Below, in pieces: positions 4,771-49,139 of a stretch of 64,000 bases of DNA (its first letter is position 1; every line of letters begins with the position of its first letter). This stretch comes from Dokdonia sinensis (GTDB lineage Bacteria > Bacteroidota > Bacteroidia > Flavobacteriales > Flavobacteriaceae). The notes under the pieces are model-generated. The model had not been told where the DNA came from. It saw only the letters and a list, made by a program, of their open reading frames with translations, and did no database searches. A program made the position numbers and the translations under genes. The stretch spans positions 1 to 64,000 of the forward strand of contig NZ_REFV01000003.1 in the NCBI RefSeq assembly GCF_003688895.1, read 5' to 3'.

Positions 4771-5604
4771 TCAGTATCCCGCAAGGTCATAATTGAGCAT
4801 TCTCCTCATCCGTTCATAGAGAATTGGAAAATGAGTTTTAAAATCGTTGGGCGATTCAAAAAAGTATTCTGCAAGAACGGCCATAAACTCATATTGATTT
4901 GTGAAGGCATACGCTCTAAAGTATTTAACCTCATCTAGTTTATCTTTAAGATCTTGGTCTGTTAGTCGGACTAAAATCTTCTGAAACTGTCTTTCAAAAC
5001 GGATAGCATCTACATCCTCACTGCGCACCGCATCCAGTTGCAACGCGTGCATAAATTCGTGTATTCCCAAATTGAGATTATCATCTGTAATGCGGTACCC
5101 TTTTTCAAAATCTTCCCAAGACAAAACTAGCGTACGCTGGCTTGGATTAAATTCACCTTTATGGTACTCATCGTTTATGGCACTATAGAACGCTGCAGGA
5201 TACAACAATATATTTTCGACTAGGGCGTACAAATAGTGTTTCCTTCCGAAGGTGAGCATACAGCCTACGGCAGCAATGAGGAGTTTCATTTCTTCTGTTA
5301 CAATAAGTCCGTCTCTTCCTATAAATTTTTTAGAGCCTACAAATGTTACAACACGATGCTCATAGCGCCGTCTTTCTTGAGAAGATAGCTTGTTGTAGAA
5401 TTCAAAATTAGATTGTAGGTATTTTCTTTGCTTTCGCGAAAGCGAACGAAATACCCATAAATCGCGATATAGTAACCTGTGCGTCTTATTTGCGTACCAA
5501 GTCTCATATAGTCGAAACAATACATAAAACACCCAAAGGACCACTAAAGCAAGCCCATAGGGTGCCAGCCAAGCATATTCTTGGGTATGTCCTTGTGATG
5601 TCAT
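4771..5604 (-). CDS. MtfA-like zinc-dependent peptidase
   Basis: A 277-residue M90/MtfA-type protein. The zinc-binding motif HEFMH lies at about residues 182-186 and distal glutamates follow in LAEYFFESPNDF. Unlike E. coli MtfA it has an N-terminal membrane anchor at about residues 12-31. E. coli MtfA cleaves peptide substrates and binds the glucose regulator Mlc; the role in Bacteroidota is unknown. A perfect copy of the dispersed palindrome (5430-5443) lies in the coding sequence and supplies residues LSRK 55-58, outside the catalytic core. Confidence 0.82.
   Translation of the reverse strand: MTSQGHTQEYAWLAPYGLALVVLWVFYVLFRLYETWYANKTHRLLYRDLWVFRSLSRKQRKYLQSNFEFYNKLSSQERRRYEHRVVTFVGSKKFIGRDGLIVTEEMKLLIAAVGCMLTFGRKHYLYALVENILLYPAAFYSAINDEYHKGEFNPSQRTLVLSWEDFEKGYRITDDNLNLGIHEFMHALQLDAVRSEDVDAIRFERQFQKILVRLTDQDLKDKLDEVKYFRAYAFTNQYEFMAVLAEYFFESPNDFKTHFPILYERMRRMLNYDLAGY
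5430..5443. repeat. Dispersed palindrome, exact core copy inside a gene
   Basis: GCTTTCGCGAAAGC within the MtfA-like gene, read as LSRK. The flanks are not symmetric beyond the core. Confidence 0.95.
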
Positions 5605-5672
5605 AATTGCTCAACGTGCGAATTTGGGGTTCTATTACTCGATGGAGATTATTCTGGCTTCAATCACCAGCA

Positions 5673-6209: not shown

Positions 6210-8608
6210 TATTCTAATTTACTTTTTGGTAGTTTCTGAGCAAGTCCGTAGCCTTTCTTTTTACTCACTCTATAATCTCTTTTTGACTTCTCCGTCTCAC
6301 CCAATCTCTCATAGGCCTGCCCTCTATTATATTCTGGACGACCATCATCCCAAGCATTTGCATCTATAACTTTAGTAAGATGTTGTACGGCTTCCTCATA
6401 TTGATTCATTTTTATCTCAATAATCCCTAGGTTGAGCAGCGTAGGATTATTGGATGGTGTTACAGCAAGAATTTTTAAGAACTCCTCTTTTGCCGCTGCA
6501 TAATCTTTCTCCTTAATAAATGCAAAACCATTTTTATACCACGCTCTAATATCCCCTTCGTTCTTACGGCTGGTAAATTTCTCTCTAAAAGTAATGAGGC
6601 TGCTATCGTTAGGGTTAGCCTTTATGGCCTCATCTACTACGGCGGTAGCACGATCTGGATCTTTATAAAACTCAAATATTCGTGTTGCTTTTGCCTTCCA
6701 TTGGCGTACATCATTAGGAAAACGTTCTAGTCTTGCATCATAGGTCTTAAAGTAATTTACGGTATCTCCCTTCTCCCGATATGCGTTTAAGAGAATAACA
6801 TAATTATTCTTAATTGCCGGATACTTTTCAAATCCTTGTTTAGAGTAATAGATGGCACTATCTAAGTCTTTCTCACGTTGTCCATAAATAATAGCCTTGA
6901 GCATCTTGGACTCATAGTGATGAGGAGCAAGTTTGATGGATTTATCTAAGTGATTTAGGGCCAATTTATCATTACCCTCACTCATAGCATACATGGCCAC
7001 CACATGTTCGTTTGGTCTTCCTACGCCAGCGATTTCAAAAAAACCGTCCAGCCTATTCTTTGCCTGATCATACGTATAGGTATAGTCTGCAGTCATTAAG
7101 TTTTTCCCCATGGTATCTGCTAGAACGTAGTTTTGATGTACGTAAGATTGATATTTTGCAAATGATATTACTGCTGCTAGGGCTCCCACAATTCCCAAAC
7201 CTAAAACTACTGGGACAAGAGGCAAACTTCTCTGCGCGCGCTCCTCTTTATCTACTCCAACTGCATCTGCCGCTCCTTTAAAGGCAACTATGACTGCTGC
7301 AATAATTGCAAACAGACCCTGGATGGGCGTACGTTCCATGGGAAAGTTGATGGTTGCATCTAACCCATAGGCCATAAGGGCAAAAATGAGTACGAGATAC
7401 ATCCAGCGATTTTCGGAGTCTTGATGCTTAAAAAATAGTAAGAGTATACTTCCTGCTAAAATCACAAACATAAGGAGGTAAGGAAGGAAACCTAATATTC
7501 CCGTCTCTGCAAGCACTTGTAAAAAATCACTATGCACACGTAAGGGATAAAGGAATCTGTCTACGTCTGATCTACCAAAATATAAATCCTTGCTCGTAAG
7601 TTTCCAGTTTCCCAGTCCTACACCCATAACTGGATTTGCCTTAAAATCATTTATAGCCATCTCAAAGTAAGTAAAACGTCCTGAGTCTACTCCACCCGTA
7701 CTAGACTGAGCTGGTTCTCTTATAATAGCAACGCCATTCTCGTCACCAGAAGCAGTTGTAAGAATATTTTTATAACTATTTGCTTGGGTTTTATCCAGTC
7801 GGTTGGTATTTGTAACCAGAAGGAAACCTGCAATGAGTATTCCCATAATAGGTAGAAGAGGATACTTAAGCTTTCGCGAAAGCGTACCCGTACGTATCCC
7901 ATCTATAAAGAGATAAAGAATTAATAAGGAAAATGTAATGGTCGTACTGAGCATCGCCGAACGTGCACCAACATAAAACAGGGCCGTAAAACCTACAAAC
8001 AATGTTGCGATGGACATATACCTCCAACGTTCAGTATGTTTTAAAACACCCCAAATTATAAACGGTAAAGTAATCGCAAGGAATGCCGCCGTCACGTTAC
8101 GGTTACCGAAAAGCATTTCAGTTTCCTTGAGTAAAGGCACAGTACGTTGTACATCCCAGTTGTCGATAAAGTGATACACAATTTGTATCCCTATAAGAAA
8201 AACTACAACATGAACAACTTTTACAAGAAACTGAAAAAGGCGCTGGGGAGCCAGTTGGAATGTGAGATAGAGATTGAACACCCCAATCAAAGTAATACCT
8301 ACCCGGGCGATATCCTTAACCCCTTCAGAAAAATTTATCGTATTAAAAATAGATGCCAAAGCAACGATAAAAAAAAGAGCGTACGCGCCAAAAAACCAAA
8401 AAGCAACTCTAGAAAAATTTTGAACCGTCAAAAGTTTACGATTACTAAAAATTAAGACGAGCCCTAATAAATTTACCAACCCAAAATAGAACCATTGCGA
8501 GCCTATAGGATCTACAGATTCAAATCTTGGAATAAAACAAATCACACAGTATAGTGCGACTAATACCTTGAATCCCAACAAGTTTATGGTAGTGTCTGTA
8601 TTTTTCAA
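6209..8608 (-). CDS. O-antigen ligase-domain membrane protein with C-terminal TPR repeats
   Basis: A 799-residue protein. Residues 1 to about 485 hold a dozen hydrophobic segments and the Wzy/O-antigen-ligase features: YVGARSAMLSTTITF, then NPVMGVGLGNWK, and HSDFLQVLAETGILGFLPYLL near residues 320-385. From about 520 onward the protein is soluble and helical with TPR-like units (for example NNPTLLNLGIIEIKMNQYEEAVQHL). Family members polymerise or ligate surface glycans. The C-terminal TPR domain would mediate protein contact. The substrate is unknown and no glycan cluster adjoins it. A palindrome copy lies in the gene at 7870-7883 and encodes LSRK. Confidence 0.85.
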   Translation of the reverse strand: MKNTDTTINLLGFKVLVALYCVICFIPRFESVDPIGSQWFYFGLVNLLGLVLIFSNRKLLTVQNFSRVAFWFFGAYALFFIVALASIFNTINFSEGVKDIARVGITLIGVFNLYLTFQLAPQRLFQFLVKVVHVVVFLIGIQIVYHFIDNWDVQRTVPLLKETEMLFGNRNVTAAFLAITLPFIIWGVLKHTERWRYMSIATLFVGFTALFYVGARSAMLSTTITFSLLILYLFIDGIRTGTLSRKLKYPLLPIMGILIAGFLLVTNTNRLDKTQANSYKNILTTASGDENGVAIIREPAQSSTGGVDSGRFTYFEMAINDFKANPVMGVGLGNWKLTSKDLYFGRSDVDRFLYPLRVHSDFLQVLAETGILGFLPYLLMFVILAGSILLLFFKHQDSENRWMYLVLIFALMAYGLDATINFPMERTPIQGLFAIIAAVIVAFKGAADAVGVDKEERAQRSLPLVPVVLGLGIVGALAAVISFAKYQSYVHQNYVLADTMGKNLMTADYTYTYDQAKNRLDGFFEIAGVGRPNEHVVAMYAMSEGNDKLALNHLDKSIKLAPHHYESKMLKAIIYGQREKDLDSAIYYSKQGFEKYPAIKNNYVILLNAYREKGDTVNYFKTYDARLERFPNDVRQWKAKATRIFEFYKDPDRATAVVDEAIKANPNDSSLITFREKFTSRKNEGDIRAWYKNGFAFIKEKDYAAAKEEFLKILAVTPSNNPTLLNLGIIEIKMNQYEEAVQHLTKVIDANAWDDGRPEYNRGQAYERLGETEKSKRDYRVSKKKGYGLAQKLPKSKLE
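7870..7883. repeat. Dispersed palindrome, exact core copy inside a gene
   Basis: GCTTTCGCGAAAGC within the O-antigen-ligase/TPR gene, read in frame as LSRK in a loop between hydrophobic segments (GTLSRKLKYP). Confidence 0.95.
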
Positions 8609-8777
8609 TTGTTAATTTTTTTTGACTTAGGCCTTCATTAGCCATTACGAAGTTAAGAAAACCTTAAAACTCGGAGTGTTAAGATTTAATTGGGAACATG
8701 TTAACGTCTTCAAGGAAACCGCAAGAGCCTTTGTTACGTAAGTTGAGCAGAAGAACTAAAATCTTAAAAAACGAATT

Positions 8778-9476: not shown

Positions 9477-9505
9477 ATAATATCAAATTTTAAAATCTTA
9501 CAATT

Positions 9506-10159: not shown

Positions 10160-10182
10160 CTCTTGCCAGGACTTAAAAGATC

Positions 10183-11985: not shown

Positions 11986-12780
11986 TTATGAAGATACTAC
12001 CCCAAGTGTATAGAGTTGATCCATTGTAGGACCTGCGCTTCCACCTGCCGGCTCTAAAGTTATCCCAAAAGCTTCAGAAGCATTAGGATTATCTAGTTCA
12101 ATAATCTGAAGCCCTTCTGCATTATATGTGTCTAGAACTCCCATACTTGTTGGGGTGAGTGGTTCTAGAGTAAGTGACCAGACTTGGTACACCTTTCCAG
12201 CAGGTGGTTCTGGTAGACCGCTTACATCTATATAGGCTTTATTAGAAGCTTTGTCCCAGAAAACAGATGCATAAGCTTGCGGAGCGACAGCTTGACCAGC
12301 AAGTGGTACTTTTATCACATCCTTATGCCGTATTGCATTTAGAACTTCTTTAGTCGCAGCTAGATTTTCTTCGGCGACTTGGGTTTTACCTTCTTGTAGT
12401 ATTTGTTCTCTTTCTAGATCAGATATTTGAGTTTCTAGCTTAGAGACTTCTCTGGACTGAAACAATAATCCGACCAGCAACAATGCTGCGGCTGCGTAGC
12501 CTATATAAGCAATGATAGGGGTACGCTTTCGCGAAAGCGGAATTACCTTTTCATCATCACCAGTAAACTCTAGTTTTGATTTAATCTTAGTCAGCATTTT
12601 CTCCGGACTATACGGCGCAGCAGCCATCGATAACTGTTGTAATGCTTTTTCTATTTCTTCTACTTCTTGTGCAACTTCGGGGTATTGTTGCAAAGCTTTA
12701 TAAACTTCGACGTTTTCTTGGTGAGTTAAAACACCGTATACGTAAAGCTCAAGAATTCCAGAATCTATGTATTCTTTCAT
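11986..12780 (-). CDS. Anti-sigma factor, RskA C-terminal type
   Basis: A 264-residue membrane anti-sigma factor. A cytoplasmic N-terminal part with an anti-sigma zinc-finger-like helical region lacking cysteines (YIDSGILELYVYGVLTHQENVEVY) precedes one transmembrane helix at about residues 87-107. A coiled-coil linker (115-160) then leads to an extracytoplasmic RskA-type domain (VFWDKASNKAYIDVSGLPEPPAGKVYQVW). It would hold the ECF sigma factor encoded 10 bases upstream at the membrane until a signal releases it. A palindrome copy (12525-12538) encodes LSRK 82-85 just before the membrane helix. Confidence 0.88.
   Translation of the reverse strand: MKEYIDSGILELYVYGVLTHQENVEVYKALQQYPEVAQEVEEIEKALQQLSMAAAPYSPEKMLTKIKSKLEFTGDDEKVIPLSRKRTPIIAYIGYAAAALLLVGLLFQSREVSKLETQISDLEREQILQEGKTQVAEENLAATKEVLNAIRHKDVIKVPLAGQAVAPQAYASVFWDKASNKAYIDVSGLPEPPAGKVYQVWSLTLEPLTPTSMGVLDTYNAEGLQIIELDNPNASEAFGITLEPAGGSAGPTMDQLYTLGVVSS
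12525..12538. repeat. Dispersed palindrome, exact core copy inside a gene
   Basis: Symmetric to 16 bp (12524-12539). Read as LSRK at the cytoplasmic edge of the anti-sigma transmembrane helix. Confidence 0.95.
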
Positions 12781-14252: not shown

Positions 14253-14272
14253 TACGCTTTCGCGAAAGCGTA
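14253..14272. repeat. Dispersed palindrome, 20-bp copy
   Basis: TACGCTTTCGCGAAAGCGTA in the gap between the AraC-type gene and the DUF4252 lipoprotein, both rightward. Confidence 0.97.
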
Positions 14273-15608: not shown

Positions 15609-15628
15609 TACGCTTTCGCGAAAGCGTA
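15609..15628. repeat. Dispersed palindrome, 20-bp copy
   Basis: TACGCTTTCGCGAAAGCGTA, 13 bases upstream of the YqeY-like start, in the gap after ftsZ. Confidence 0.97.
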
Positions 15629-15731: not shown

Positions 15732-17768
15732 CTAATCTACATTGTCGTGCAAGAAAGAATTATTACTTCTTAACTGAATTTCGTCATTATCATCTGTAGA
15801 GAGTGTGGTTCTAGACAAGCTTCCATCCTTCCTTGGTGCATCTTCCAGGTTTATACCCATCCGTTTATAGGCAGGCTGCTTTTCTATCTCCTCAATACGC
15901 GCTTGATTGTGATGAAACTTATAATTAAATTCCTTCATCTTGCGTTTGCGCTCTGCCGCTCTATCTACGAGCAGTTTAGAAATAGGGCTATTCATTGGGT
16001 CTATCTCTTCCTTATCTACTTCTTCATCAGTCACGGGAGCAACAGTTTTAGTCTCGAAGACAAGGGTTTCTTCTTTTATAGCTTCATCTTTTCTAGGTTT
16101 AGCGGCCTGCATGGAGTTTTCAAGTTCCATATAATCCTCAAGACTATAACGCTTCTCTCCATCCTCCTCGTTTACAGTAACTGGGATAATTTCGATAGGC
16201 TCATTTACCTCGATAGCGGCGGTTTCTTCGTCTAATGAATACCGTACAGGCGCTTCCTCTTTATACTCTTCTACAGCAGTATCAGTAGGAGGCAGCATAT
16301 CGAACTCGAGCATTCCTTGATTTTTAGGTTGCTCTTTAGGCTTTTCCTCCTCTTGTCTGACTGTGGTATCTATAATTTCAAAATCGGCTTCATTATTTAC
16401 CAACACTTCATCGTAAACGACATTTATATTTCGTAAAATATCAGTTGTAGGAATGATGTCCATTTTTAATTGTTCTGGCACTTGAGGAATATGAGCTTTT
16501 TCGGCTTTCGCAAAAGCGGACTTTACCTCATCATTATTTTTTATCTCCTCGGGACGTGGTTCTATATGCTGCTTAGGGTTTGTAGCTTTTTCAAAAACGT
16601 TTACAGCCTCATCGAGATCTAAGGTGTGCACTATCTTTTCTGGTGCCACAGGTTGTTGTGGTGTGATAGGTGCTGCAGGAGGGATTTCCTCTTTTGCCTC
16701 TGGCATTAGATTGTGCTCTGCACGTTGCTCTTCCTCCAGCGTGTGAATTATTTTTTTAGTCTCTACGTTTACAATCTCGTTTTGTTGTTCTGCGTTAAAT
16801 CCCGTTGCAATGATTGTTACAGAAACAGCATCTCCTAAAGATTCATCTTCGCCCACACCCATAATGATATTTGCGCTATGTCCTGCTTCACCTTGAATAT
16901 GGTCATTTATTTCTCCTATCTCATCTATCGTTATTTCATCACCTCCAGAAACGATAAGTAACAATACATTTTTTGCACCGTGTATTTTGTTGTCGTTAAG
17001 CAGCGGAGAATCCAGCGCCTTTGAAATTGCCATATGTGCACGATCTGTACCACTTGCAGTAGCACTTCCCATTATGGCAGTTCCTGAATTACTCAAAACA
17101 GTTTTTGCATCTCTAAGGTCAATATTTTGTGTGTAGTGGTGTGTTATCACCTCTGCAATACCTCTTGAGGCCGTAGCAAGAACCTCATCTGCCTTACTAA
17201 AACCGGCTTTAAAGCCTAGGTTTCCGTAGACCTCACGCAGTTTATTGTTATTGATAACTATGAGGGAGTCTACCTGAGCACGTAATTTATCAACTCCTTT
17301 TTGAGCTTGCTCATTACGCATTTTCCCCTCAAACTGAAACGGAATGGTAACGATCCCTACGACAAGGACGTCCATCTCACGAGCCATTTTTGCAATTACG
17401 GGAGCTGCTCCCGTTCCCGTACCACCGCCCATTCCTGCAGTGATAAAGATCATTTTCGTATTGGTATCCAGCATCTTCTTAATATCCATCTCACTCTCGA
17501 TGGCTGCCTTCTCCCCTACTTCTGGATTTGCTCCTGCGCCAAGACCCTCTGTAAGTCCAACCCCAAGCTGGATCTTATTAGGTACCGTGCTATTTTCCAG
17601 CGCCTGTGCATCTGTGTTGCAGATAACAAAATCTACTCCCTTAATGCCCTGCTGGAACATATGATTAATTGCGTTGCTACCGCCTCCACCTACGCCTATC
17701 ACTTTTATGACATTGCTCTGGTGTTTTGGTAGATCAAATGTGATGTTATCAAATTGTGTCGTACTCAT
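15732..17768 (-). CDS. ftsZ: Cell division protein FtsZ (long C-terminal tail)
   Basis: A 678-residue tubulin-like GTPase forming the division ring. The GTPase core is residues 1 to about 325, with GVGGGGSNAINHM, the NTDAQAL loop and the tubulin signature GGGTGTGAAPVIA. A 350-residue tail follows, rich in E, P and K and probably disordered, about 300 residues longer than in E. coli FtsZ. It ends in NNSFLHDNVD, the form of C-terminal tip I know from flavobacterial FtsZ. A degenerate palindrome (16504-16517) in the tail encodes AFAKA. It is the last dcw gene in transcription order, after ftsA. Confidence 0.97.
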   Translation of the reverse strand: MSTTQFDNITFDLPKHQSNVIKVIGVGGGGSNAINHMFQQGIKGVDFVICNTDAQALENSTVPNKIQLGVGLTEGLGAGANPEVGEKAAIESEMDIKKMLDTNTKMIFITAGMGGGTGTGAAPVIAKMAREMDVLVVGIVTIPFQFEGKMRNEQAQKGVDKLRAQVDSLIVINNNKLREVYGNLGFKAGFSKADEVLATASRGIAEVITHHYTQNIDLRDAKTVLSNSGTAIMGSATASGTDRAHMAISKALDSPLLNDNKIHGAKNVLLLIVSGGDEITIDEIGEINDHIQGEAGHSANIIMGVGEDESLGDAVSVTIIATGFNAEQQNEIVNVETKKIIHTLEEEQRAEHNLMPEAKEEIPPAAPITPQQPVAPEKIVHTLDLDEAVNVFEKATNPKQHIEPRPEEIKNNDEVKSAFAKAEKAHIPQVPEQLKMDIIPTTDILRNINVVYDEVLVNNEADFEIIDTTVRQEEEKPKEQPKNQGMLEFDMLPPTDTAVEEYKEEAPVRYSLDEETAAIEVNEPIEIIPVTVNEEDGEKRYSLEDYMELENSMQAAKPRKDEAIKEETLVFETKTVAPVTDEEVDKEEIDPMNSPISKLLVDRAAERKRKMKEFNYKFHHNQARIEEIEKQPAYKRMGINLEDAPRKDGSLSRTTLSTDDNDEIQLRSNNSFLHDNVD
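16504..16517. repeat. Degenerate palindrome copy in the ftsZ tail
   Basis: GCTTTCGCAAAAGC, one mismatch from the core. The gene reads it as AFAKA, and the difference (TTT for TTC) is synonymous for phenylalanine. Confidence 0.75.
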
Positions 17769-17884: not shown

Positions 17885-17898
17885 GCTTTCGCGAAAGC
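17885..17898. repeat. Dispersed palindrome, exact copy between ftsA and ftsZ
   Basis: Core GCTTTCGCGAAAGC, symmetric to 16 bp (17884-17899), inside the 158-base ftsA-ftsZ gap of an otherwise tightly packed operon. Confidence 0.96.
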
Positions 17899-19290: not shown

Positions 19291-19335
19291 CGCTACTTCG
19301 ACTGCGCTCAGTACAAGTTTCGCGAAAGCGTACTC
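19291..19335. repeat. 45-bp composite repeat, copy 1 (ftsQ-ftsA gap)
   Basis: CGCTACTTCGACT followed by a GCGCTCAG segment and a half-conserved palindrome (TTTCGCGAAAGCGTACTC). It matches 25389-25433 at 42 of 45 positions. The left arm of the palindrome core is degraded (AGTTTCGCGAAAGC). Confidence 0.9.
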
Positions 19336-19347
19336 AGTCCCCAATTC

Positions 19348-20064: not shown

Positions 20065-21406
20065 GCTTTAATGCTTTTGTTATTTTTATTATTTCTACAC
20101 CTATATCTCCCGCGCCCATCATCACAATTATCTTCTGAGATGCATCCTTCACGCAATCTGCAAGTTGTGATTTTTGAATTTTACGCTTTCGCGAAAGCGT
20201 CATTTGACTCATTAATGCGTCGCTATCTATCCCGTCAATAGGTTCTTCTCTTGCCGGGTAAATATCCAGCAAAATAACGGCATCAAACCGTGAAAGCTCC
20301 CGCGCAAATTCTCCCATAAAATCCCGCGTCCGGCTAAATAAATGTGGCTGGAAAATGGCCAGAACTTCTTCCTCTGGATACATCTCCCGCACACTCTGAT
20401 GTACCGCCGAAATCTCCGTAGGATGATGTGCATAATCGTCTATGAGCACAAGATCGTCAGTCTTTATTCTATATGTAAATCGGCGATTTACGCCAGAGTA
20501 ACTTAATAAAGCTTTGGGGAGCAACGTGGTTGGGGAGCCATATTTCATTGCCATTCCCAAAGCTGTTATTGCATTAAAAATATTATGCCTCCCAGGAAGA
20601 TTAAATACTAAATCTTTAATCGTTCCCTCGGGATGCTTGAGGTCAAAAACATACTGACCTTCGATTATTTTAATATTTTGAGCACTATAATCTGCATCGT
20701 CTTCTATACCCACCGTATTTCCCTCCAGCGGAAGGCCATTTTTTACAAATCGCATAGACGGCACCACCAATGATCCAAAATCGGTAAACGTTTGTACCAG
20801 ATCTGCCTCGTTCTCATAAATATCCAGATGGTCTGCATCCATTGATGTGATGCACAGGATATTAGGTTTCAGTTGTAAAAACGAGCGGTCGAACTCATCT
20901 GCTTCCACCACAATGACCTCATTTCCTTTTTGGATGAGATTTCCGTCGTAATTGTTTGTTATCCCGCCCACAAATGCCGTAACTGGAGCTCCAGTATCAG
21001 CAAGGAGATGACCGAGAATACTTGATGTCGTTGTCTTCCCGTGAGTCCCTGCAACCGCTAGTGAGTACGTTTGATTTGTAATCATTCCCAACACTTCGGC
21101 GCGTTTTTTTATGTGGTATCCGCTTTCGCGAAAGTGGACCAACTCACCCATCGTTTTAGGAACAGCAGGCGTGTAAACAATCAATGTATTTTCAATATCA
21201 CTAAAACGACCATCTACCGCCGAACCCTTGTCCTCAAAATGAACCGAAACACCAGCCTCCTGGAGCTTTTCGGTAACATCACTAGGTGTTTTATCATACC
21301 CCGCAACCACTTTACCCTCATTGTGAAAGTAAAATGCCAGCGCACTCATCCCTATCCCACCGATACCGATAAAGTAAATGTTCTGTATGTCGCTTAAAGG
21401 TTTCAA
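20054..21406 (-). CDS. murC: UDP-N-acetylmuramate--L-alanine ligase
   Basis: A 450-residue Mur ligase that adds L-alanine to UDP-MurNAc with ATP in the cytoplasm. The N-terminal Rossmann motif is FIGIGGIGMSALA, the P-loop AGTHGKTTTSSIL at about 115-127, and the C-terminal domain carries DDYAHHPTEI. Two palindrome-family copies lie in the gene: an exact one at 20185-20198 read as LSRKR, and one with a single mismatch at 21122-21135 read as FRES. Both occur at places where the family is variable. A 7-bp tandem repeat lies directly upstream of the start. Confidence 0.97.
   Translation of the reverse strand: MKPLSDIQNIYFIGIGGIGMSALAFYFHNEGKVVAGYDKTPSDVTEKLQEAGVSVHFEDKGSAVDGRFSDIENTLIVYTPAVPKTMGELVHFRESGYHIKKRAEVLGMITNQTYSLAVAGTHGKTTTSSILGHLLADTGAPVTAFVGGITNNYDGNLIQKGNEVIVVEADEFDRSFLQLKPNILCITSMDADHLDIYENEADLVQTFTDFGSLVVPSMRFVKNGLPLEGNTVGIEDDADYSAQNIKIIEGQYVFDLKHPEGTIKDLVFNLPGRHNIFNAITALGMAMKYGSPTTLLPKALLSYSGVNRRFTYRIKTDDLVLIDDYAHHPTEISAVHQSVREMYPEEEVLAIFQPHLFSRTRDFMGEFARELSRFDAVILLDIYPAREEPIDGIDSDALMSQMTLSRKRKIQKSQLADCVKDASQKIIVMMGAGDIGVEIIKITKALKRAS
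20185..20198. repeat. Dispersed palindrome, exact core copy in murC
   Basis: GCTTTCGCGAAAGC, symmetric to 18 bp (ACGC...GCGT, 20183-20200). Read as LSRK in the murC C-terminal domain. Confidence 0.96.
21122..21135. repeat. Degenerate palindrome copy in murC
   Basis: GCTTTCGCGAAAGT, one mismatch at the last base. It is read as FRES, a different frame from the exact copy in the same gene. Confidence 0.8.
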
Positions 21407-21407
21407 G

Positions 21408-21562: not shown

Positions 21563-22666
21563 CTACTTCCCGCTCCCAACTCCCAGCAACTTCTCCACCT
21601 CATCCACAATGTCATTAGTGGCGTTAGGTAAAGCGAGTAACTTCATATTTGCTCCTAATTCTTCTCTTCTCGTCTCGTTAGTCATCAGTATTTCGAGAGC
21701 ACTTTCGAACTTTTTATTCAGTTCACTTTCTTTTATCAAAATGGCTCCGTCTTCTTTTTCGATGGCCTTTGCATTTTTTGTTTGATGGTCTTCTGCGACG
21801 TTTGGGCTTGGGATAAAAATGGTCGCTTTCCCGACGATGCACAGTTCGCTTACGGAGCTTGCGCCTGCTCTGGAAATGATGACATCTGCAGAAGCATACG
21901 CTAAATCCATTTGATCTATGTAAGCCATCACACGAACATCATCGCTTTCTAAATCTTTATAGCGCTCGTAATACAACTTTCCCGTTTGCCAAAGCACTTG
22001 AACGCCCAGCTTCTTAAATAGTGGCAACTGCTCACTTATCAAAATATTAATCGCTTTTGCACCTAAACTTCCGCCAATGACGAGAACAACTTTTGAGTTG
22101 GGTGACAATTCATATTTCGCGAAAGCGTCATTACGTTTCCCCTCAATTTCCAATACATCAGAACGTACGGGGTTTCCCGTTTTTATAATCTTACTTTCTG
22201 GAAAATACCTTCCCATATCGTCATACGCCACGCATATCTTCTGAACGGATTTTGCTAGGAGTTTATTAGTAATCCCCGCATAGCTATTCTGCTCCTGAAT
22301 AAGTGCTGGTATTTTCTTGCCAACTGCTTTTTTCAGTAACGGTCCGCTTGCGAAACCTCCCGTACCAATTACGACGTCTGGCTTAAATTGTTTCAAAATT
22401 TTTCCCGACTTCCTCAGACTACTCAGTAATCGGAACGGAAATTTTAAATTTTCTACACTCAAGGAACGTTGAATTCCTGTGATATTGAGCCCCTCAATGG
22501 CAAAACCTGCTTGAGGTACTTTTTCCATTTCCATACGGTTTTGCGCACCCACAAAGAGAAATTCCGTGTCAGGATGACGGCGCTGAATTTCCTTTGCAAT
22601 CGCAATCGCGGGATAGATGTGACCACCTGTTCCTCCTCCAGATAATATGACTTTATAGGGCTTCAC
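21563..22666 (-). CDS. murG: UDP-GlcNAc--lipid I N-acetylglucosamine transferase
   Basis: A 367-residue GT28 glycosyltransferase that turns lipid I into lipid II at the inner membrane. Glycine loops are present: [18 protein letters not shown] at the N-terminus and [12 protein letters not shown] mid-protein. The donor site is seen in [37 protein letters not shown] degraded palindrome (22113-22126) encodes AFAKY. Its start overlaps the ftsW end by 14 bases. Confidence 0.97.
22113..22126. repeat. Degenerate palindrome copy in murG
   Basis: TATTTCGCGAAAGC, two mismatches confined to one arm. Read as AFAK. Confidence 0.65.
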
Positions 22667-23942: not shown

Positions 23943-23956
23943 GCTTTCGCGAAAGC
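23943..23956. repeat. Dispersed palindrome, exact core copy (murD-ftsW gap)
   Basis: Flanks TTCC and ATAAAAA are shared with the copy at 49272, so similarity extends asymmetrically beyond the core. Confidence 0.95.
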
Positions 23957-25388: not shown

Positions 25389-25433
25389 CGCTACTTCGAC
25401 TACGCTCAGCACAGGTTTCGCGAAAGCGTACTC
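25389..25433. repeat. 45-bp composite repeat, copy 2 (mraY-murD gap)
   Basis: Near-identical to 19291-19335 (three differences). It joins a CTTCGACT-ACGCTCAG segment to a palindrome with one mismatch in the core (GGTTTCGCGAAAGC). It fills almost all of the 59-base gap between mraY and murD. Confidence 0.9.
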
Positions 25434-26671
25434 TAACGAATCTTGAGCGTTATAATCGACAGTACTGCGAGTAAAATCCCAACAATCCAAAACCGTGTGA
25501 CTATCTTACTCTCGTGTATTCCCTTTTTCTGATAATGATGATGTAACGGCGACATCAAAAAGATGCGACGCCCTTCTCCAAATTTTTTCTTTGTATACTT
25601 GAAATATCCCACCTGCATTACGACCGAAAGGTTTTCCATCAAGAAAATCCCACAAAGAATCGGGATGAGCCATTCTTTACGAGTAGCAATGGCGAGTACC
25701 GCGATAATCCCACCTATGGTAAGACTGCCCGTATCTCCCATAAATACCTGAGCAGGATAGGCATTGTACCACAAAAACCCAATGAGTGCTCCCACAAAGG
25801 CTGCAATGAAGATGAGCATCTCACCAGTTCCCGGGATATACATCACATTGAGGTAATCACTAAAAACAATGTTACCGGACACGAAGGCGAAAATCCCAAG
25901 CGTTAGAACTACAATTGCACTCGTCCCCGCAGCGAGTCCGTCGATACCATCCGTTAGGTTTGCCCCGTTTGAGACAGCCGTGATAATGAAAATCACAATA
26001 GGGATAAAGATGACCCAAGCGTAGTCTTTCCAGTCTTCATTAATAGCCGTTACAATAGTTTCATAATCAAGCTCATTGTTCTTCACAAAAGGAATGGTGG
26101 TTTTGAGGCTCTTTACTTCCTCTGTAAACTTCTGGTCACGCTTTGTCTCCGTGATTTCAAGCTTCTCTGTTCCCACTTCATTTTTAATTTCCTGACGGAC
26201 GGTAATATCACTATGAAAGAACATTGTAGCTCCGACGATAATCCCAAGGCCCACTTGTCCGATGACTTTATATTTACCAGCAAGACCTTCCTTGTTCTTT
26301 TCCATCTTCTTCTTGTAATCATCTAAAAAACCGATAATTCCCATCCAGACCGTGGTAATGATGAGCAAGACAATGTAAATGTTATCAAGATTTGCAAAAA
26401 GAATCACAGGAATAAGCGTCGCCGCAATGATGATAAGACCTCCCATTGTAGGCGTCCCAGCTTTTTCGGCTTGACCCTCTAGGCCCAGGTCACGTATTTG
26501 CTCACCCATTTGTTTACGGCGCAAGAACTTTATAATGCGTTCCCCGTAAATTGTTGATATACCAAGCGATAACAATACGGCAAGTGCCGCTCTAAACGTA
26601 CTGAACTGAAACAATCCCGCACCCGGCAAGTTGTAAGCCTCATCTAGAAATTTAAAAAGGTGATACAGCAT
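25433..26671 (-). CDS. mraY: Phospho-N-acetylmuramoyl-pentapeptide-transferase
   Basis: A 412-residue polytopic membrane enzyme that makes lipid I from UDP-MurNAc-pentapeptide and undecaprenyl phosphate. Signature stretches are [11 protein letters not shown], the aspartate pair [20 protein letters not shown] and [13 protein letters not shown]. An insertion of about 50 polar residues (roughly 150-205) between membrane segments makes it longer than the 360 residues of E. coli MraY; such an insert is usual in Bacteroidota as far as I know. Start and murE stop overlap by one base (TAATG). Confidence 0.97.
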
Positions 26672-28134: not shown

Positions 28135-30122
28135 GACAGTTCGAGGCTTATGGTTTGATTCTTTTCTAGTTTTATACCCGGTTTAATGGACTGATTTTTC
28201 ACTTTTCCGCTTCCGCGAAATTTTACTTTGAGACCTAGATTCTCTAAAAGCGCCACGGCATCCATTCCAGACATTCCTTTAACATTAGGAATAGTCTTGT
28301 GTCCCTTATTCACATTTGTGTAGTACTTCTCAAAATCCCCCTCAATCGCCGAAGGATTTGCTCTAGGCAACACTACCTCATCAATTACCGGCGTGTCTGA
28401 ATAGATTTTTTGAGCTATTTCTTTGAAAACTGGAGCTGCAACGATATTTCCGTAGTATCCAATAGACTTCTTAGGTTTGTGCACGACCACGATACAAGAG
28501 TACCTCGGATTATCTGCTGGAAAGTATCCCGCAAAAGAAGAGATATACCTCCCTGGCTCTATCCAATACTCTATCTGGCAGGTTCCTGTTTTCCCGGCCA
28601 TCGAAAACTCGGGGCTGTATATATTTTTAGCAGTACCGCGCTCCACGGTTTTTTTCATCATTTCCTTTACAACATCTATCGTTTCCTGAGATGCAATTCG
28701 TGGATTGATTACTTCCTTTTCAAACGTCTCTACCGTTTGATCCCACTCTTTTACTTCTTTGATAAAGCGTGGCTTTACCATCTCTCCATCATTTGCAATG
28801 GCATTATAAAAGGTGAGTGTCTGTAGCGGGGTAAGTTGCACTCCATACCCAAAGGCCATCCACGGCAAGGTCGTCCCGTACCAATCGTCATCACCGGGAT
28901 ACGGAAATTTTGGCTTTCCTTCGCCTATGATTTCAATGCCTAATTGATCGTTGAGGCCCATATTAAACAATCGTTTTACAAATCGCTTTGGGTTGTCTTT
29001 GTAGTTTTCGTTTATCATTTTCGCGAAAGCGGTATTACTACTCAGCTCAAAAGCCTTTGCAGCACTTATCTTTCCGTAACCGCCCCATTTAGAATCGAGC
29101 ACGGTGCGATCATAAAATTTTACGCGTCCGTTTTCAGTATCGAACACGGTGCTGGAATCAATCACCTTGTCCTCGAGGGCAGCGACCATAGACATCAACT
29201 TAAAAGTCGAACCTGGCTCGTGCGACTCACCTACTGCGTAGTTGAGGCGCTCATAATACTTGCCTTCTGGTGTGCGACCTAAATTTGAAATGGCTTTGAT
29301 CTCACCTGTCTCTGTCTCCATAACAACCACGCTACCGTGGTCTGCCTCAAATTTCTCGAGACTTTGGAGTAGGGCGTTATGAGCCACATCTTGAATATTC
29401 ACATCGATGGTAGAAATGACATCGTAGCCATCTCTAGGCTCCACCACGTTGCCCACACCAAGGGGTTTCCACTCACCTTTAGATATTTTTTGCTTGAGGC
29501 GACGCCCTTCTTTACCTCTTAAGTAATGTCCATAGGCTCCCTCAAGTCCAACTCGTGTGAAATAGCCACTATCGTCCTTGCGCTCATAACCCACGGTACG
29601 CTCTGCCATTTTTTCAAGTGGGTGCTCACGCTCCGTGTGTTGCTCGATAATGATACCGCCTTTGTATTTTCCTTTATTAAAAAGAGGAAGCGCACGGATC
29701 TTCATATAATCACCGTAGCCCAGCTTTCTAGCAATAAAGAGATATCTGTTTTTTGTAGAGCGGGCTTTTCGTAATCGGTTTTCGTAGTAAGAGGCAGGTT
29801 TACCCAATACTTCCGATAGTCCTTTTGAAAGTCCCACAATATTCTCGCTAAAATGTTCTTTAGAAGGAGACATCGCATCCCAGCGGATGTCATATTTAAT
29901 TTGTGATGTAGCAAGTAAACTACCGTCCTCTGCATAGAGATTCCCGCGAGTAGCTGGAATGGTGACCATCTTTTCAGTACTCGTGACCGCCATCTCGCGA
30001 TATTTGTCACCTTGAAAAACTTGGATGTTTACCAATTTAATCGTGACGGCAAGTGCAAAGATGAACATACATCCAGACACAAAATACAAACGGTTCAATA
30101 TGTTCTTTTCGGTGGTTGCCAC
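28131..30122 (-). CDS. ftsI: Penicillin-binding protein FtsI/SpoVD-type with PASTA domain
   Basis: A 663-residue class B transpeptidase for septal peptidoglycan. One N-terminal membrane helix (about 14-34) precedes a pedestal domain. In the transpeptidase domain the triad STFK (GSTFKLMSMV), SSN (SSNTAFAK) and KTG (AGKTGTCQ) is complete. A C-terminal PASTA domain (about 600-663, TIPNVKGMSGMDAVALLENLG) is a feature of SpoVD and many Bacteroidota FtsI. The SSN region carries a degraded palindrome (29017-29030, AFAK), and a weaker one is at 28209-28222. Confidence 0.96.
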   Translation of the reverse strand: MATTEKNILNRLYFVSGCMFIFALAVTIKLVNIQVFQGDKYREMAVTSTEKMVTIPATRGNLYAEDGSLLATSQIKYDIRWDAMSPSKEHFSENIVGLSKGLSEVLGKPASYYENRLRKARSTKNRYLFIARKLGYGDYMKIRALPLFNKGKYKGGIIIEQHTEREHPLEKMAERTVGYERKDDSGYFTRVGLEGAYGHYLRGKEGRRLKQKISKGEWKPLGVGNVVEPRDGYDVISTIDVNIQDVAHNALLQSLEKFEADHGSVVVMETETGEIKAISNLGRTPEGKYYERLNYAVGESHEPGSTFKLMSMVAALEDKVIDSSTVFDTENGRVKFYDRTVLDSKWGGYGKISAAKAFELSSNTAFAKMINENYKDNPKRFVKRLFNMGLNDQLGIEIIGEGKPKFPYPGDDDWYGTTLPWMAFGYGVQLTPLQTLTFYNAIANDGEMVKPRFIKEVKEWDQTVETFEKEVINPRIASQETIDVVKEMMKKTVERGTAKNIYSPEFSMAGKTGTCQIEYWIEPGRYISSFAGYFPADNPRYSCIVVVHKPKKSIGYYGNIVAAPVFKEIAQKIYSDTPVIDEVVLPRANPSAIEGDFEKYYTNVNKGHKTIPNVKGMSGMDAVALLENLGLKVKFRGSGKVKNQSIKPGIKLEKNQTISLELS
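28209..28222. repeat. Weak palindrome-like match in the ftsI PASTA region
   Basis: GCTTCCGCGAAATT, three mismatches from the core. The gene reads KFRGSG here. It may be an eroded copy or chance. Confidence 0.35.
29017..29030. repeat. Degenerate palindrome copy in ftsI
   Basis: ATTTTCGCGAAAGC, two mismatches in one arm. It is read as AFAK immediately after the catalytic SSN motif. Confidence 0.6.
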
Positions 30123-32024: not shown

Positions 32025-32044
32025 TACGCTTTCGCGAAAGCGTA
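32025..32044. repeat. Dispersed palindrome, 20-bp copy in a divergent promoter region
   Basis: TACGCTTTCGCGAAAGCGTA between the mraZ operator and the hydrolase promoter. A transcription terminator would make little sense in this divergent position. Confidence 0.97.
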
Positions 32045-33025: not shown

Positions 33026-33634
33026 ATGAAAATCAAATCTGCCCAGTTTATTGTCAGTAACTCTGAAGTTAAGAAATGCCCGCGCACGCGATTGCCAGAA
33101 TATGCATTCATAGGTCGCTCTAATGTGGGTAAATCCTCGCTCATTAATATGCTAACCAATCGTAAGGGACTTGCTAAAACTTCTGGACGGCCAGGAAAAA
33201 CACAGCTTATAAATCATTTTTTGATTAATGAGAACTGGCACCTTGTAGATTTACCTGGATATGGCTATGCTCGCGTTTCCAAAAAGGAGAAGAAAACCTT
33301 CCAGCGCTTTATTACCGATTATTTCGAGCAGCGAGAACAAATGATTTCTGCATTTGTGTTGGTAGACTGCCGTCACGAGCCCCAAAAAATCGATATGGAG
33401 TTTATGGAGTATTTAGGGGAAAAAGAGATTCCATTTTCCATCATTTTTACCAAAGCAGACAAGGAGAAACCCAAATCCTTAGAGCGTAAAATTGAGCATT
33501 ACAAAAAAATTATGCTTGAAGGTGTGTGGTGGGAATTTCCTAATTACTTTGTGAGTAGTGCAACGAATGGTGAGGGACAGGAAGAGATTCTCAATTATAT
33601 TGAGGATATTAATGGGAATTTAAAATTAGGTTAG
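33026..33634 (+). CDS. engB: Ribosome biogenesis GTPase EngB/YsxC
   Basis: A 202-residue TRAFAC-class GTPase needed for 50S subunit assembly. G1 is GRSNVGKSS at about residues 30-38, G3 DLPGYG at 75-80 and G4 TKADK at about 151-155. Length and order are typical. Its stop overlaps the stop of the convergent small gene (33631-33634). Confidence 0.96.
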
Positions 33635-34002
33635 TCCCAATCTAATTTTAGCACATTATTTACTTCGTCAATTAAAGCCTCTAAGTTTTGAATCTCCTTA
33701 AAACGCTCTGTAGCAATTGCTATTTCTAGTTCGCCATTCCTTTCGGCTAGAACGATGGGGAAATCGTATTTGGGAAGCCACTTTGATTTATAAGCTTTAA
33801 GGAACTCATCTTTATGCAAGAATATGAGAGGGCTTTTTATGCTTTCGCGAAAGCGTACCCATTCCTCTTTTTCTCTGAATGCGCCAAAGGTAAGACTACA
33901 CAAATCGCACTCATACGTTTGAGGACTCAAAATTTTATGAGTTGCATCCAGCAAAGCATTGAGGTTGCCAGAGTTTGCGTTGTATACAAAAATAAGCTTC
34001 AT
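33631..34002 (-). CDS. Small conserved hypothetical protein
   Basis: A 123-residue cytoplasmic protein opening with [19 protein letters not shown], containing [13 protein letters not shown] (a C-x2-C pair), a middle basic segment and the acidic C-terminus. I do not recognise a function. A palindrome copy (33841-33854) encodes FRES within it. It converges on engB with overlapping stop codons and no terminator between them. Confidence 0.7.
33841..33854. repeat. Dispersed palindrome, exact core copy inside a small gene
   Basis: GCTTTCGCGAAAGC read as FRES (RFRES), a different frame from the LSRK copies. Confidence 0.95.
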
Positions 34003-40576: not shown

Positions 40577-40590
40577 GCTTTCGCGAAAGC
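40577..40590. repeat. Dispersed palindrome, exact core copy
   Basis: Left flank TATAC, right flank GGAAA: the two common flank types of the family are combined asymmetrically around the core. Confidence 0.95.
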
Positions 40591-44150: not shown

Positions 44151-44167
44151 GCTGACACTAATTAGTG

Positions 44168-44187
44168 TACGCTTTCGCGAAAGCGTA
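44168..44187. repeat. Dispersed palindrome, 20-bp copy between convergent genes
   Basis: TACGCTTTCGCGAAAGCGTA fills half of the 40-base gap between the stops of the LytTR gene and gldC. No other terminator is visible there, so here it could serve as one, although there is no T-tract. Confidence 0.97.
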
Positions 44188-44190
44188 ATC

Positions 44191-44529: not shown

Positions 44530-44533
44530 ATTG

Positions 44534-45496: not shown

Positions 45497-45554
45497 AGAG
45501 TTTGTATCTTTAAGGTTGTAAACGATAAACTTGGATAAATCTTATGAGGAGTCC

Positions 45555-45568
45555 GCTTTCGCGAAAGC
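45555..45568. repeat. Dispersed palindrome, exact core copy in the gldB-nadE divergent gap
   Basis: Flanks TCC on the left and GTAGC on the right; symmetric to 16 bp (45554-45569). Confidence 0.95.
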
Positions 45569-45628
45569 GTAGCACTCCCAAAGCAACTCCAAAAATACCA
45601 TTTTTTAAAACTTTAAAATTTCTTCCAG

Positions 45629-46420: not shown

Positions 46421-46527
46421 CACTTTTATCGATTAACAACTCATTTATGGGTAGTGAGAAGCATTTCTTTGTACTTTGCGTTTATATTTAAAATCCCCCG
46501 ATTTTAACTGTAAAATTACCCAACCAA

Positions 46528-47166
46528 ATGGATAAAGTTTTAATCGCTGATCATCATCCGATCACGCGCAAGGGGGTTACCTCAATTCTCCGTGCAGAAG
46601 AAAAATATGACGTCATAGGATATATAAGTGACGGTAATGATTTGCTTGGTTTTCTAACAAAAAATGAAGTAGACATTCTAATTTTAGAAATTGATATCCC
46701 AAATCTCAATAGCATCACAGCTATTAAAGCGATAAAAAGGGAGTTCCCACACATCAAAATATTTATTTTAAGTTGCCACCCTGAAGAGATGTATGCTCTA
46801 AGTGCAATAAAATATGGTGCTGCCGGATATGTTTCGAAAACGGCATCACTACAAAAAATACTAGATGCTGTAAATCAAATACAAAGGGGAGGTATATATC
46901 TTAATGAAGACTTGAGCCGTCGTCTTGTAGACCAAGGAAGCACTACTCAAGGACTTGCATACAAATACAAACGCCTATCTAGCAGAGAGATAGAAGTACT
47001 AAATCTTCTTTCAAATGGTAGACGAAACAAGGAAATAGCTTCTGAGCTGGATATTAATGAGAAGACGGTAAGCACCTATAAGATGCGTTTGCTTAAAAAA
47101 CTAGATGCCCAGAATGTTGCAGAACTTATCAAGCACGCTCGGCTATTACAAAGCGCGAGTATCTAA
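46528..47166 (+). CDS. NarL/LuxR-type response regulator with atypical receiver
   Basis: A 212-residue regulator: receiver domain (1-120), then LuxR-type helix-turn-helix at about 145-205 (LSSREIEVLNLLSNGRRNKEIASELDINEKTVSTYK). The acidic pocket reads ADHHP, with His9 where the second aspartate is normal. The phosphoacceptor position (LILEIDIPN) is Glu54 instead of Asp. Ser and Lys of the switch (LSCHPEE, VSKTAS) are kept. It is probably not phosphorylated in the usual way and may be constitutively active or controlled otherwise. No histidine kinase adjoins it. It converges on dnaG with overlapping stops. Confidence 0.88.
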   Translation: MDKVLIADHHPITRKGVTSILRAEEKYDVIGYISDGNDLLGFLTKNEVDILILEIDIPNLNSITAIKAIKREFPHIKIFILSCHPEEMYALSAIKYGAAGYVSKTASLQKILDAVNQIQRGGIYLNEDLSRRLVDQGSTTQGLAYKYKRLSSREIEVLNLLSNGRRNKEIASELDINEKTVSTYKMRLLKKLDAQNVAELIKHARLLQSASI

Positions 47167-49139
47167 TTAAGTTTAGCCGAAAAAACTCTGCCCAACTTCT
47201 CATTGAGCAAGGTGTTGAGACTCAAATAATCCTTGATATCGCTTAAAATATCACTGTTGTTATTCTCATTAGAAATGGTACCAGAGAGTTCTTGAATTTT
47301 TTGACTTATAAGATAACCACGCAAGCTCAAGATAGTCTCAGAAACAAACTGCGCGATACTCTTGTCCTTAGTTTTTACAAAAACATCGCGGTCTTGCCAT
47401 CTATGTAACGTATATTTTTCCTCGCCAAAGATGATACTGGATATCTCTGAGGACTCTTCTGGAGATAGCTCGTTTATAAAACTATCTACTTTAAATTCCG
47501 GATTAGTACTAAGCTTCTCAACAATTTTTGCGTACAAAGATTTAAAGAGGTCATTTGTAAACTCTACTTCGTCCTCTTGTAAATCGAGGTATATTTTCTC
47601 AAATACTTTTGCCTTATGCACAACCGGTTCTAACTCTAGACCACCATCTTCATTTTCTTTTAACACCAAGTCTTCAAAATCTTCTTCTTCCTGCCCGTAA
47701 AGTAGCAACGCCTCTATGAGTTTGCGCTCTAGTTCGAACAATACGTTTACTTTTTCTGCGGGAGCAACAGTTTCATCTTGAATTATAGAAAAGGGTTTAG
47801 GAGCGTCTTTTTTCTGCTGTTTTGAAGCTTCCTTTTGATTTTTATTTGAAATTTGGGCCAGCGTGTTGTACAATACAGACTCAGAAATATCCATAATGCG
47901 TGAGCATTCTTGCACGTAAATCTCTCGCTTTATGGTGTCTGGTATTTTTGAGATACTCTCCACCATATCCCGAACAATCTCCGCCCTTTTTATAGGATCT
48001 CCTTTGGACTGCTCTACAAGAAGCTGTGCTTTGTACTGGATAAAATCCTTTGCATTCTCATTAAAGAAATTGAGTATCTCTTCTTGGGTATGCTTTCGCG
48101 AAAAGCTATCTGGATCCTCTCCATCAGGAAAGGCACATACCTTTACATTCATTCCCTGCTCCAGAATTAGATCTATACCGCGTATGGCCGCTCTTTGTCC
48201 CGCCGCATCTCCGTCAAAGAGTACGGTAATATTTTTTGTCAGTCTATTAATAAGTCTAATCTGGTCTGACGTAAGTGCCGTTCCTGAAGAGGAAACTACG
48301 TTCTCTATTCCAGACTGGTGCATCTGGATGACATCTGTATATCCTTCGACGAGGTAGCAGTTATCCTCTTTGGCTATGGATTGCTTTGCATAGTAAATCC
48401 CATAGAGCACTTTACTTTTGTGGTAAATATCGCTTTCTGGAGAGTTCAGATATTTTGCTGCCTTTTTACTGCTGTCTAAGATACGTCCACCAAAACCAAG
48501 CACGCGACCACTCATAGAATGTATAGGGAACATCACCCGCCCCTTAAATCGGTCAAACTGCTTTTCCTCTTTTACAATACTGAGCCCCGTTTTTTCTAAA
48601 AAGTCAAGTTTATACCCCTTGCGCAATGCTTCACTTGTAAATGCATCCCATTGATCAGGATTGTATCCCAATTGAAATTTCTTTATCGTCTCATCTGTAA
48701 AACCCCGTTCTTTAAAATAGCTAAGCCCGATGGCTTTTCCCTGCTCAGTATTGAGCATTGTCTCGTGAAAGTAATCTCTGGCATATTCGCTCACGACATA
48801 CAGACTCTCACGCTCCGTCGCTGCAATCTTTTGCTCATCGGTTTGCTCAGTCTCCTCTACTTCAATATTATATTTTTTGGCCAAATATTTTATAGCCTCC
48901 GGATAACTAAAATGCTCGTGTTCCATTATAAATGAAACCGCTGTACCTCCTTTTCCACTTGAAAAATCTTTCCAGATCTGTTTTACAGGAGACACCATAA
49001 AACTGGGTGAGCGCTCGTCTGAAAATGGAGAAAGCCCCTTAAAATTAGACCCTGATTTTTTTAGATTTACAAAATCACCTATGACCTCCTCTACACGAGC
49101 AGTTTCAAAAACTTTGTCTATGGTCGATTTGCTTATCAC
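47163..49139 (-). CDS. dnaG: DNA primase DnaG without zinc ligands
   Basis: A 658-residue primase that makes RNA primers for replication. The N-terminal domain is recognisable (GLSPFSDERSPSF, then WKDFSSGKGG), but the usual Cys/His zinc ligands are Ser, Ser, Asp and Ser/Lys. To my knowledge this is general in Flavobacteriia. The TOPRIM core has LVEGYTDVIQMHQ (metal-binding Glu) and VLFDGDAAGQRA. A C-terminal helicase-binding region follows. A degraded palindrome (48092-48106) encodes FSRKH. The TAG stop overlaps the stop of the response regulator. Confidence 0.95.
   Translation of the reverse strand: MISKSTIDKVFETARVEEVIGDFVNLKKSGSNFKGLSPFSDERSPSFMVSPVKQIWKDFSSGKGGTAVSFIMEHEHFSYPEAIKYLAKKYNIEVEETEQTDEQKIAATERESLYVVSEYARDYFHETMLNTEQGKAIGLSYFKERGFTDETIKKFQLGYNPDQWDAFTSEALRKGYKLDFLEKTGLSIVKEEKQFDRFKGRVMFPIHSMSGRVLGFGGRILDSSKKAAKYLNSPESDIYHKSKVLYGIYYAKQSIAKEDNCYLVEGYTDVIQMHQSGIENVVSSSGTALTSDQIRLINRLTKNITVLFDGDAAGQRAAIRGIDLILEQGMNVKVCAFPDGEDPDSFSRKHTQEEILNFFNENAKDFIQYKAQLLVEQSKGDPIKRAEIVRDMVESISKIPDTIKREIYVQECSRIMDISESVLYNTLAQISNKNQKEASKQQKKDAPKPFSIIQDETVAPAEKVNVLFELERKLIEALLLYGQEEEDFEDLVLKENEDGGLELEPVVHKAKVFEKIYLDLQEDEVEFTNDLFKSLYAKIVEKLSTNPEFKVDSFINELSPEESSEISSIIFGEEKYTLHRWQDRDVFVKTKDKSIAQFVSETILSLRGYLISQKIQELSGTISNENNNSDILSDIKDYLSLNTLLNEKLGRVFSAKLN
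48092..48106. repeat. Palindrome copy with one extra A in dnaG
   Basis: GCTTTCGCGAAAAGC: the core with a one-base insertion in the right arm. Read as SFSRKH. Confidence 0.7.

Follow-up and report, generated by a model that had tools for sequence, protein, structure and literature searches.

The palindrome CTTTCGCGAAAG was analysed in a window of DNA from Dokdonia sinensis (contig NZ_REFV01000003.1, positions 1 to 64,000; "the window" denotes the whole of this 64-kb stretch) and in related genomes. The palindrome is a site present throughout the genome and under selection at the DNA level, and it is larger than an earlier note, made from the letters of the window, had it. It forms a sharp, evenly spaced code that takes precedence over the choice of codons in murC and further genes, and it points to a genome-wide DNA-handling system. 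The window contains 19 exact copies; with up to two mismatches allowed, 30 copies were found against 2.87 expected (100 shuffles, the largest of which gave 7). The whole genome (3.65 Mb) holds 917 copies, compared with 2 of a reversed control pattern, and the mean interval between copies is approximately 4 kb. The FtsZ encoded in the window is up to 79% identical to Dokdonia records and 64-66% identical to Leeuwenhoekiella records. No published description of the palindrome was found in the accessible portions of the literature on Dokdonia, Nonlabens or Flavobacteria palindromes, or under the core ten-mer as text.

Anatomy, sharpness and spacing

Copy-level statistics for D. sinensis were drawn from a 464-kb sample, made up of the window and 400 kb of contig 1. 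Alignment of 115 copies gave the consensus TACG-CTTTCGCGAAAG-CGTA, with a core of approximately 14-20 bp and arms of approximately 18 bp. The left arm is C-poor and G/T-rich and the right arm is its mirror, that is, each strand is G/T-rich 5' of the core. The arm pattern is alike in intergenic and genic copies, in 129 copies of a second Dokdonia species (G001) and in 47 copies of a further genus, g11; it is weaker in a third genus, g191. The A/C content of the right arm has a minimum at every third position (p 0.0066 for intergenic and 0.008 for genic copies of D. sinensis, 0.005 for G001 and 0.036 for g11, by permutation of positions), and in g11 a period of 2 is slightly stronger than the period of 3.

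By a simple home-made gene caller, 52 of the 115 copies are genic, a count that is low because the caller trimmed or missed the genes holding the copies at 5431 and 33842; the intergenic density is approximately six-fold higher, with approximately 17% of the DNA non-coding (same caller, hand calculation). The 62 classed intergenic copies lie between co-directional (43), divergent (14) and convergent (5) genes, roughly in proportion to intergenic bases, and show no preference for gene orientation. No arm-to-arm covariation was detected: the within-copy match was 0.339 against 0.343 expected (intergenic copies, arm positions 5-16), and the lone low p value among 21 tests was 0.037 (intergenic, positions 17-30). 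Since the two arms of a copy resemble each other no more than arms taken from different copies do, there is no selection for a hairpin outside the core. A terminator or hairpin was rejected on the absence of covariation, the few convergent copies and the lack of orientation preference.

Exact 14-mers outnumber one-mismatch 14-mers by 5:1 to 21:1 (108:22 in D. sinensis, 149:7 in G001, 66:12 in g11 and 49:8 in g191), and Markov-resampled sequences contained no 14-mer copies. Gaps shorter than 1 kb are scarce, at 3 of 113 in D. sinensis (24.7 expected), 6 of 110 in G001 (32.0), 0 of 46 in g11 (9.9) and 0 of 44 in g191 (6.7). The coefficient of variation of the gaps was 0.66, compared with 1.03 in random placements preserving the genic/intergenic split, none of 2000 of which was as low. 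In twenty 20-kb stretches around the G001 chromosome the number of copies ranged from 3 to 9 (variance/mean 0.28); contig 1 of D. sinensis is less even (0.69). An even spacing of approximately 3-6 kb is maintained. A signal bound to the replication origin or terminus (ori/ter) was rejected on the even density round the G001 chromosome. Ten proteins scanned from three motif deserts were metabolic, surface or unassigned, with no mobile-element families among them.

Copies in the window are given below (coordinates, strand, description, basis or comparison); the strand is "." throughout.

1544..1555 (.) exact, intergenic; motif scan and gene calls
5431..5442 (.) exact, LSRK in MtfA-like (Peptidase_M90) gene; kept exactly in 2/2 Dokdonia compared
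7871..7882 (.) exact, LSRK in O-antigen ligase gene; 5 mismatches in the sole Dokdonia compared
12526..12537 (.) exact, LSRK in RskA-type anti-sigma gene; kept exactly in 2/2 Dokdonia compared
14257..14268 (.) exact, intergenic by home-made gene calls; motif scan
15613..15624 (.) exact, yqeY-ftsZ intergenic; motif scan, Pfam, gene calls
16505..16516 (.) one-mismatch, AFAKA in ftsZ linker; exact 12-mer in G001
17886..17897 (.) exact, ftsZ-ftsA intergenic; motif scan, Pfam, gene calls
19317..19328 (.) one-mismatch, near ftsA/ftsQ junction; adjoins GCTACTTCGACTNCGCTCAG repeat
20186..20197 (.) exact, LSRK in murC (residues 404-407); 3/12 Dokdonia rows, ungapped
21123..21134 (.) exact, FRES in murC (residues 92-95); common to g191 and g11
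22114..22125 (.) one-mismatch look-alike, AFAKY in murG; peptide kept with other codons in relatives
23944..23955 (.) exact, intergenic (ftsW/murD); motif scan and gene calls
25415..25426 (.) one-mismatch; adjoins second copy of the GCTACTTCGACTNCGCTCAG repeat seen at 19317
29018..29029 (.) one-mismatch look-alike, AFAKM in ftsI; evidence mixed
32029..32040 (.) exact, intergenic; motif scan and gene calls
33842..33853 (.) exact, FRES in small gene 33631-34002; 2/4 Dokdonia and 1/1 g191 rows
40578..40589 (.) exact, intergenic; motif scan and gene calls
44172..44183 (.) exact, intergenic; motif scan and gene calls
45556..45567 (.) exact, intergenic; motif scan and gene calls
48093..48104 (.) one-mismatch look-alike, FSRK in dnaG; evidence mixed
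49273..49284 (.) exact, intergenic; motif scan and gene calls
52855..52866 (.) exact, intergenic; motif scan and gene calls
55444..55455 (.) exact, intergenic; motif scan and gene calls
59871..59882 (.) one-mismatch, ATP-grasp (PurT-like) gene 59495-60658; motif scan, reading
63173..63184 (.) exact, intergenic by home-made gene calls; two-mismatch copy at 63142

The copies at 63142 and 63173 lie 31 bp apart, far closer than any exact-exact pair in the D. sinensis samples. At 19292-19340 and 25390-25440 the one-mismatch copies (GTTTCGCGAAAGCGTAC) each come after a GCTACTTCGACTNCGCTCAG element, which gives the impression of a compound intergenic repeat that has taken up the palindrome site.

Substitution into genes and peptide readings

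Codon alignments were constructed for the cell-division gene region and, with samples from other Dokdonia, for every called gene. Genic sites aligned without gaps in 43 of 45 comparisons (two were gapped). Among the 43, the 12-mer was perfect in 19, had one mismatch in 4 and three or more in 20; three rows are duplicates from G001 (deduplicated: 18, 3 and 19 of 40), and the rows are not independent, many being the two murC sites across species. Flank identity in the rows with a perfect 12-mer is only 50-75%, and the 12-mer is therefore held as DNA. The exact FRES site in murC is present in 9 of 11 Dokdonia genomes, in 2 of 2 from g11 and in the single g191 genome. Neither Leeuwenhoekiella (0 of 4) nor the other outgroups (0 of 4) have it; their residues differ there, at the same length and with no gaps. 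All Dokdonia rows except one read FRES at this place, as do the g191 and g11 rows. This site is thus a substitution, neither an insertion nor a by-product of protein conservation. The murC of one relative (G017) keeps the FRES peptide with one DNA mismatch; at another locus (L036) the FRES site is missing and the LSRK site is present further along. The remaining murC sites have a scattered distribution, LSRK being found in 3 of 12 Dokdonia rows and AFAKA in 1 of 12. The ftsZ site sits in a variable linker with indels. As read from these alignments, exact genic sites are gained and lost by substitution in place, without change of length, which answers the question of insertion or substitution that the earlier note had put to orthologues. 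Its view that selection or spread acts on the DNA holds for the exact copies, which in addition occur in three frames and between genes.

The tetrapeptides assigned to the listed genes were all correct on translation, at coordinates one base off: LSRK at 5431, 7871, 12526 and 20186, FRES at 21123 and 33842, and, with one mismatch each, AFAK in ftsZ (16505), murG (22114) and ftsI (29018) and FSRK in dnaG (48093). The deviation in the ftsZ tail is indeed synonymous (Phe TTT for TTC), and the gene names were backed by Pfam except for the small gene at 33631-34002 that holds the copy at 33842, which had no Pfam match. All three frames are used among the 52 genic copies of the 464-kb sample, unequally (AFAKA 29, LSRK 14, FRES 9), and the AFAKA surplus fits tolerance at the protein level. 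In an AlphaFold2 model of MurC (mean pLDDT 88.0), FRES 92-95 falls at the end of a predicted helix (87-94) and LSRK 404-407 in a predicted loop entering strand 407-409. Placement at positions where the protein is tolerant, as had been suggested for variable regions, is plausible on this model and on the unequal use of frames.

One-mismatch copies in genes had been called degraded. Of the four aligned, that in ftsZ alone corresponds to an exact 12-mer in another Dokdonia, G001. Two relatives retain AFAKY in MurG, and each encodes it with other codons. In FtsI, four of six relatives have AFAK, two of them by other codons and two by the DNA of the window; in DnaG, four of six have FSRK, encoded by other codons in one and by the DNA of the window in three. 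The murG, ftsI and dnaG copies are therefore doubtful as decayed sites. Persistence of the tetrapeptides in orthologues without the motif had been named as the result that would make the DNA a by-product of protein conservation: FRES is absent from the murC outgroups, but such persistence is seen in murG and, in part, in ftsI and dnaG.

Distribution among genera, islands and phages

Each of 18 Dokdonia genomes, D. sinensis included, holds 383-937 copies. In a sample of 397 genomes of the family, counts above 25 were restricted to Dokdonia (2 sampled), g11 (3) and g191 (1), the other 391 holding 0-21; in an order-wide sample of 146 genomes D. sinensis held 917 and all others 0-11. Eight Leeuwenhoekiella FtsZ-region loci contained zero copies. 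A tree of eight concatenated proteins without MurC placed g191 as sister to Dokdonia, followed by Leeuwenhoekiella, and g11 at a distance on a long branch; a single clade of all carriers was rejected (approximately unbiased [AU] test, p 0.0128), though g11 and Dokdonia have the same murC site. A two-protein tree weakly placed g191 outside Dokdonia plus Leeuwenhoekiella. No palindrome of like strength was found in the FtsZ-region loci of five groups of neighbours. An excess of GATGCATC in Leeuwenhoekiella is at least partly due to a CRISPR-like repeat. In Leeuwenhoekiella loci among L040-L050 a repeat of approximately 42 copies near ftsZ, resembling a CRISPR array, contains GATGCATC, which itself counts 87.

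Low counts in other genera are partly clustered in islands. Eight stretches from six motif-poor genera contained 24 copies whose arms resemble those of the host (6.9 A/C of 10, against 7.1 in the host and 5.0 at random), and seven proteins scanned, all from the stretch in G104, were metal-type efflux and transport proteins. Whatever its function, the palindrome may trace DNA that has passed through carrier hosts and out of them. Five genomes (G118, G095, G231, G104 and G177) share a pair of copies with a spacing of exactly 933 bp; at L144 both copies of the pair lie inside an outer-membrane efflux gene.

Matches to a 15-base pattern were found in at least 120 stretches of viral contigs. Of 80 viral loci read, 31 are AT-rich with arms above background (6.3), and the GC-rich ones (5.1) resemble chance. 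In three viral contigs, comparison with PHROGs showed genes for head, terminase or tail proteins. In Nonlabens phage P12024S (L345-L346), TCGCGA occurs 0 times in 35.7 kb, with approximately 4 expected from base composition (hand calculation).

Candidate functions of the palindrome

The mechanism that remains must use widespread machinery or a lineage factor and act chromosome-wide. It must also call for sites at intervals of a few kilobases, make no distinction between the two directions and, on either strand, favour G/T triplets 5' of the core. Because the preserved 3' tail would be G/T-rich in both directions, a two-way recombination signal of Chi type, serving AddAB and RecA, was placed first, as a tentative reading of the sequence data. 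An AddAB-type helicase-nuclease would degrade inward from a DNA end on either side and be switched at the palindrome, and RecA would assemble from both directions on the preserved 3' tail, that is, on the G/T-rich, triplet-phased arm. The palindromic form would allow a single site to serve both directions, and with even spacing a break would meet a site well within the run length of AddAB, for which approximately 14-25 kb has been reported (in a passage of PMC4027173). According to part of PMC3763553, RecA binds single strands in threes and prefers TGG or TG-rich triplets, and E. coli Chi is surrounded by TG-rich DNA, Chi itself not being a preferred RecA nucleation site. Even spacing, G/T-rich phased arms, the lack of orientation preference and the even chromosome-wide density count for the Chi-type reading, as do some phage contigs having sites with host-like arms. 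An AddB-like nuclease (PF12705) was found in all 50 family genomes tested, which include 17 carriers, and RecC (PF04257) in 0 of 50. Like Chi, the site is genome-wide, occurs about once per few kilobases and inside genes, and has TG-rich surroundings (PMC3763553, same part); unlike Chi, which is short and oriented, it is long and palindromic, its phased arms extend only approximately 18 bp and its reader is putative. The more elaborate proposal, a palindromic bidirectional Chi of the Bacteroidota AddAB/RecA pathway with RecA-phased arms, substituted into essential genes at near-regular intervals and acquired by phages and metal-resistance islands in carrier hosts as a self mark, is possible and is held with greater reserve.

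Several observations weigh against the Chi-type reading. Known Chi sites are short and asymmetric, and a long palindrome better fits a protein dimer on duplex DNA. AddAB occurs in carriers and non-carriers alike and is not distinctive; identity to D. sinensis AddB is 39-40% in g11, 44% in g191 and 39-47% in other genera, so that carriers have no special kinship, and this comparison revealed no carrier-specific AddAB feature. The arms of g191 are weak and unphased (period-3 p 0.35). In four strain pairs (8-16 kb, one read in both directions) divergence showed no dependence on the distance to a site, in a comparison of low power. Nonlabens phage P12024S, Winogradskyella phage Peternella_1 and Cellulophaga phage Ingeline_1 have no exact copy, and none of the three has a proven carrier host. 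A cognate factor for the palindrome was not found in this analysis. Transfer of AddAB together with the motif was rejected, as AddB kinship is not unusual.

An architectural protein, binding as a dimer and organising the chromosome at regular intervals as a scaffold or domain marker, is nearly as likely as the Chi-like signal; it gives a simpler account of the palindrome and a poorer one of the phasing. The long palindrome, its sharpness, symmetric arms without covariation and even spacing all suit such a protein, as does confinement to three genera among those sampled, expected if the protein is lineage-specific. Three-base phasing of the arms would, however, be unusual for a duplex binder, no candidate protein was found, and the site lacks the ori/ter or other regional bias of ParB, Noc, MatP and SlmA sites. 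That competent cells prefer DNA bearing the palindrome, which would build up by molecular drive, is unlikely. DNA uptake sequences (DUS) and uptake signal sequences (USS) are likewise dense, even and spread by substitution in place, but those known are not palindromic, and the Dokdonia site also occurs on phages and metal islands. Flavobacteriaceae can be competent, Riemerella columbina preferring its own DNA (part of PMC7965970). T2SSF, the type IV pilus/T2SS (type II secretion system) platform protein, is nevertheless missing in 10 of 17 carriers, D. sinensis included, and present in 5 of 33 non-carriers; an uptake signal for the type IV pilus was rejected on this absence from carriers, a result that concerns pilus-based uptake only.

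Over-frequent oligomers are classed in part of PMC4390886 as Chi, uptake sequences and HIP1, the last of these (GCGATCGC) a highly iterated cyanobacterial palindrome, genic and intergenic like that of Dokdonia, that is linked there to orphan methyltransferases. Maintenance of the Dokdonia palindrome in a HIP1-like manner, via an orphan DNA methyltransferase, is improbable. The three main methyltransferase families tested are patchy in 14 carriers (matches to PF02086 in 8, to PF01555 in 4, two of them below its cut-off, and to PF00145 in 6), and two carriers (G006 and G258) match none of them. The Dokdonia site is also longer, with arms, and TCGCGA outside the motif is at chance (found/expected 54/51 in D. 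sinensis and 30/38, 29/26 and 65/62 in others); a methyltransferase-driven 6-mer bias was rejected on these counts and on the patchy occurrence of the methyltransferases. An inserted element is very improbable. Repetitive extragenic palindromic (REP) and Rickettsia palindromic elements are palindromes, some within genes, that spread by insertion, and miniature inverted-repeat transposable elements (MITEs) were considered with them. The Dokdonia site resembles such elements in being a palindrome with many copies, some genic, but it replaces bases with length unchanged; the murC sites are ungapped in all covering rows, and insertion is contradicted by the ungapped alignments for genic copies, the only ones aligned. 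A by-product of protein conservation is the least credible explanation. It is true in part for the look-alikes, other codons being used by peptide-keeping relatives for MurG AFAKY (2/2), FtsI AFAK (2/4) and DnaG FSRK (1/4), but exact copies occur in each of the three frames and also between genes, and the murC outgroups, which lack the peptide, refute it for the exact FRES copy of that gene.

If it is a protein site, the palindrome would represent a new chromosome-wide binding system. If the Chi-type reading is right, it would be a Chi candidate for Bacteroidota, where the Chi of Bacteroides fragilis was stated to be unknown in 2014 (in a passage of PMC4027173). The AddB of D. sinensis is only 51-53% identical to that of six other Dokdonia, far below the values for FtsZ or FtsA, and this divergence suggests that Dokdonia AddB may be evolving fast.

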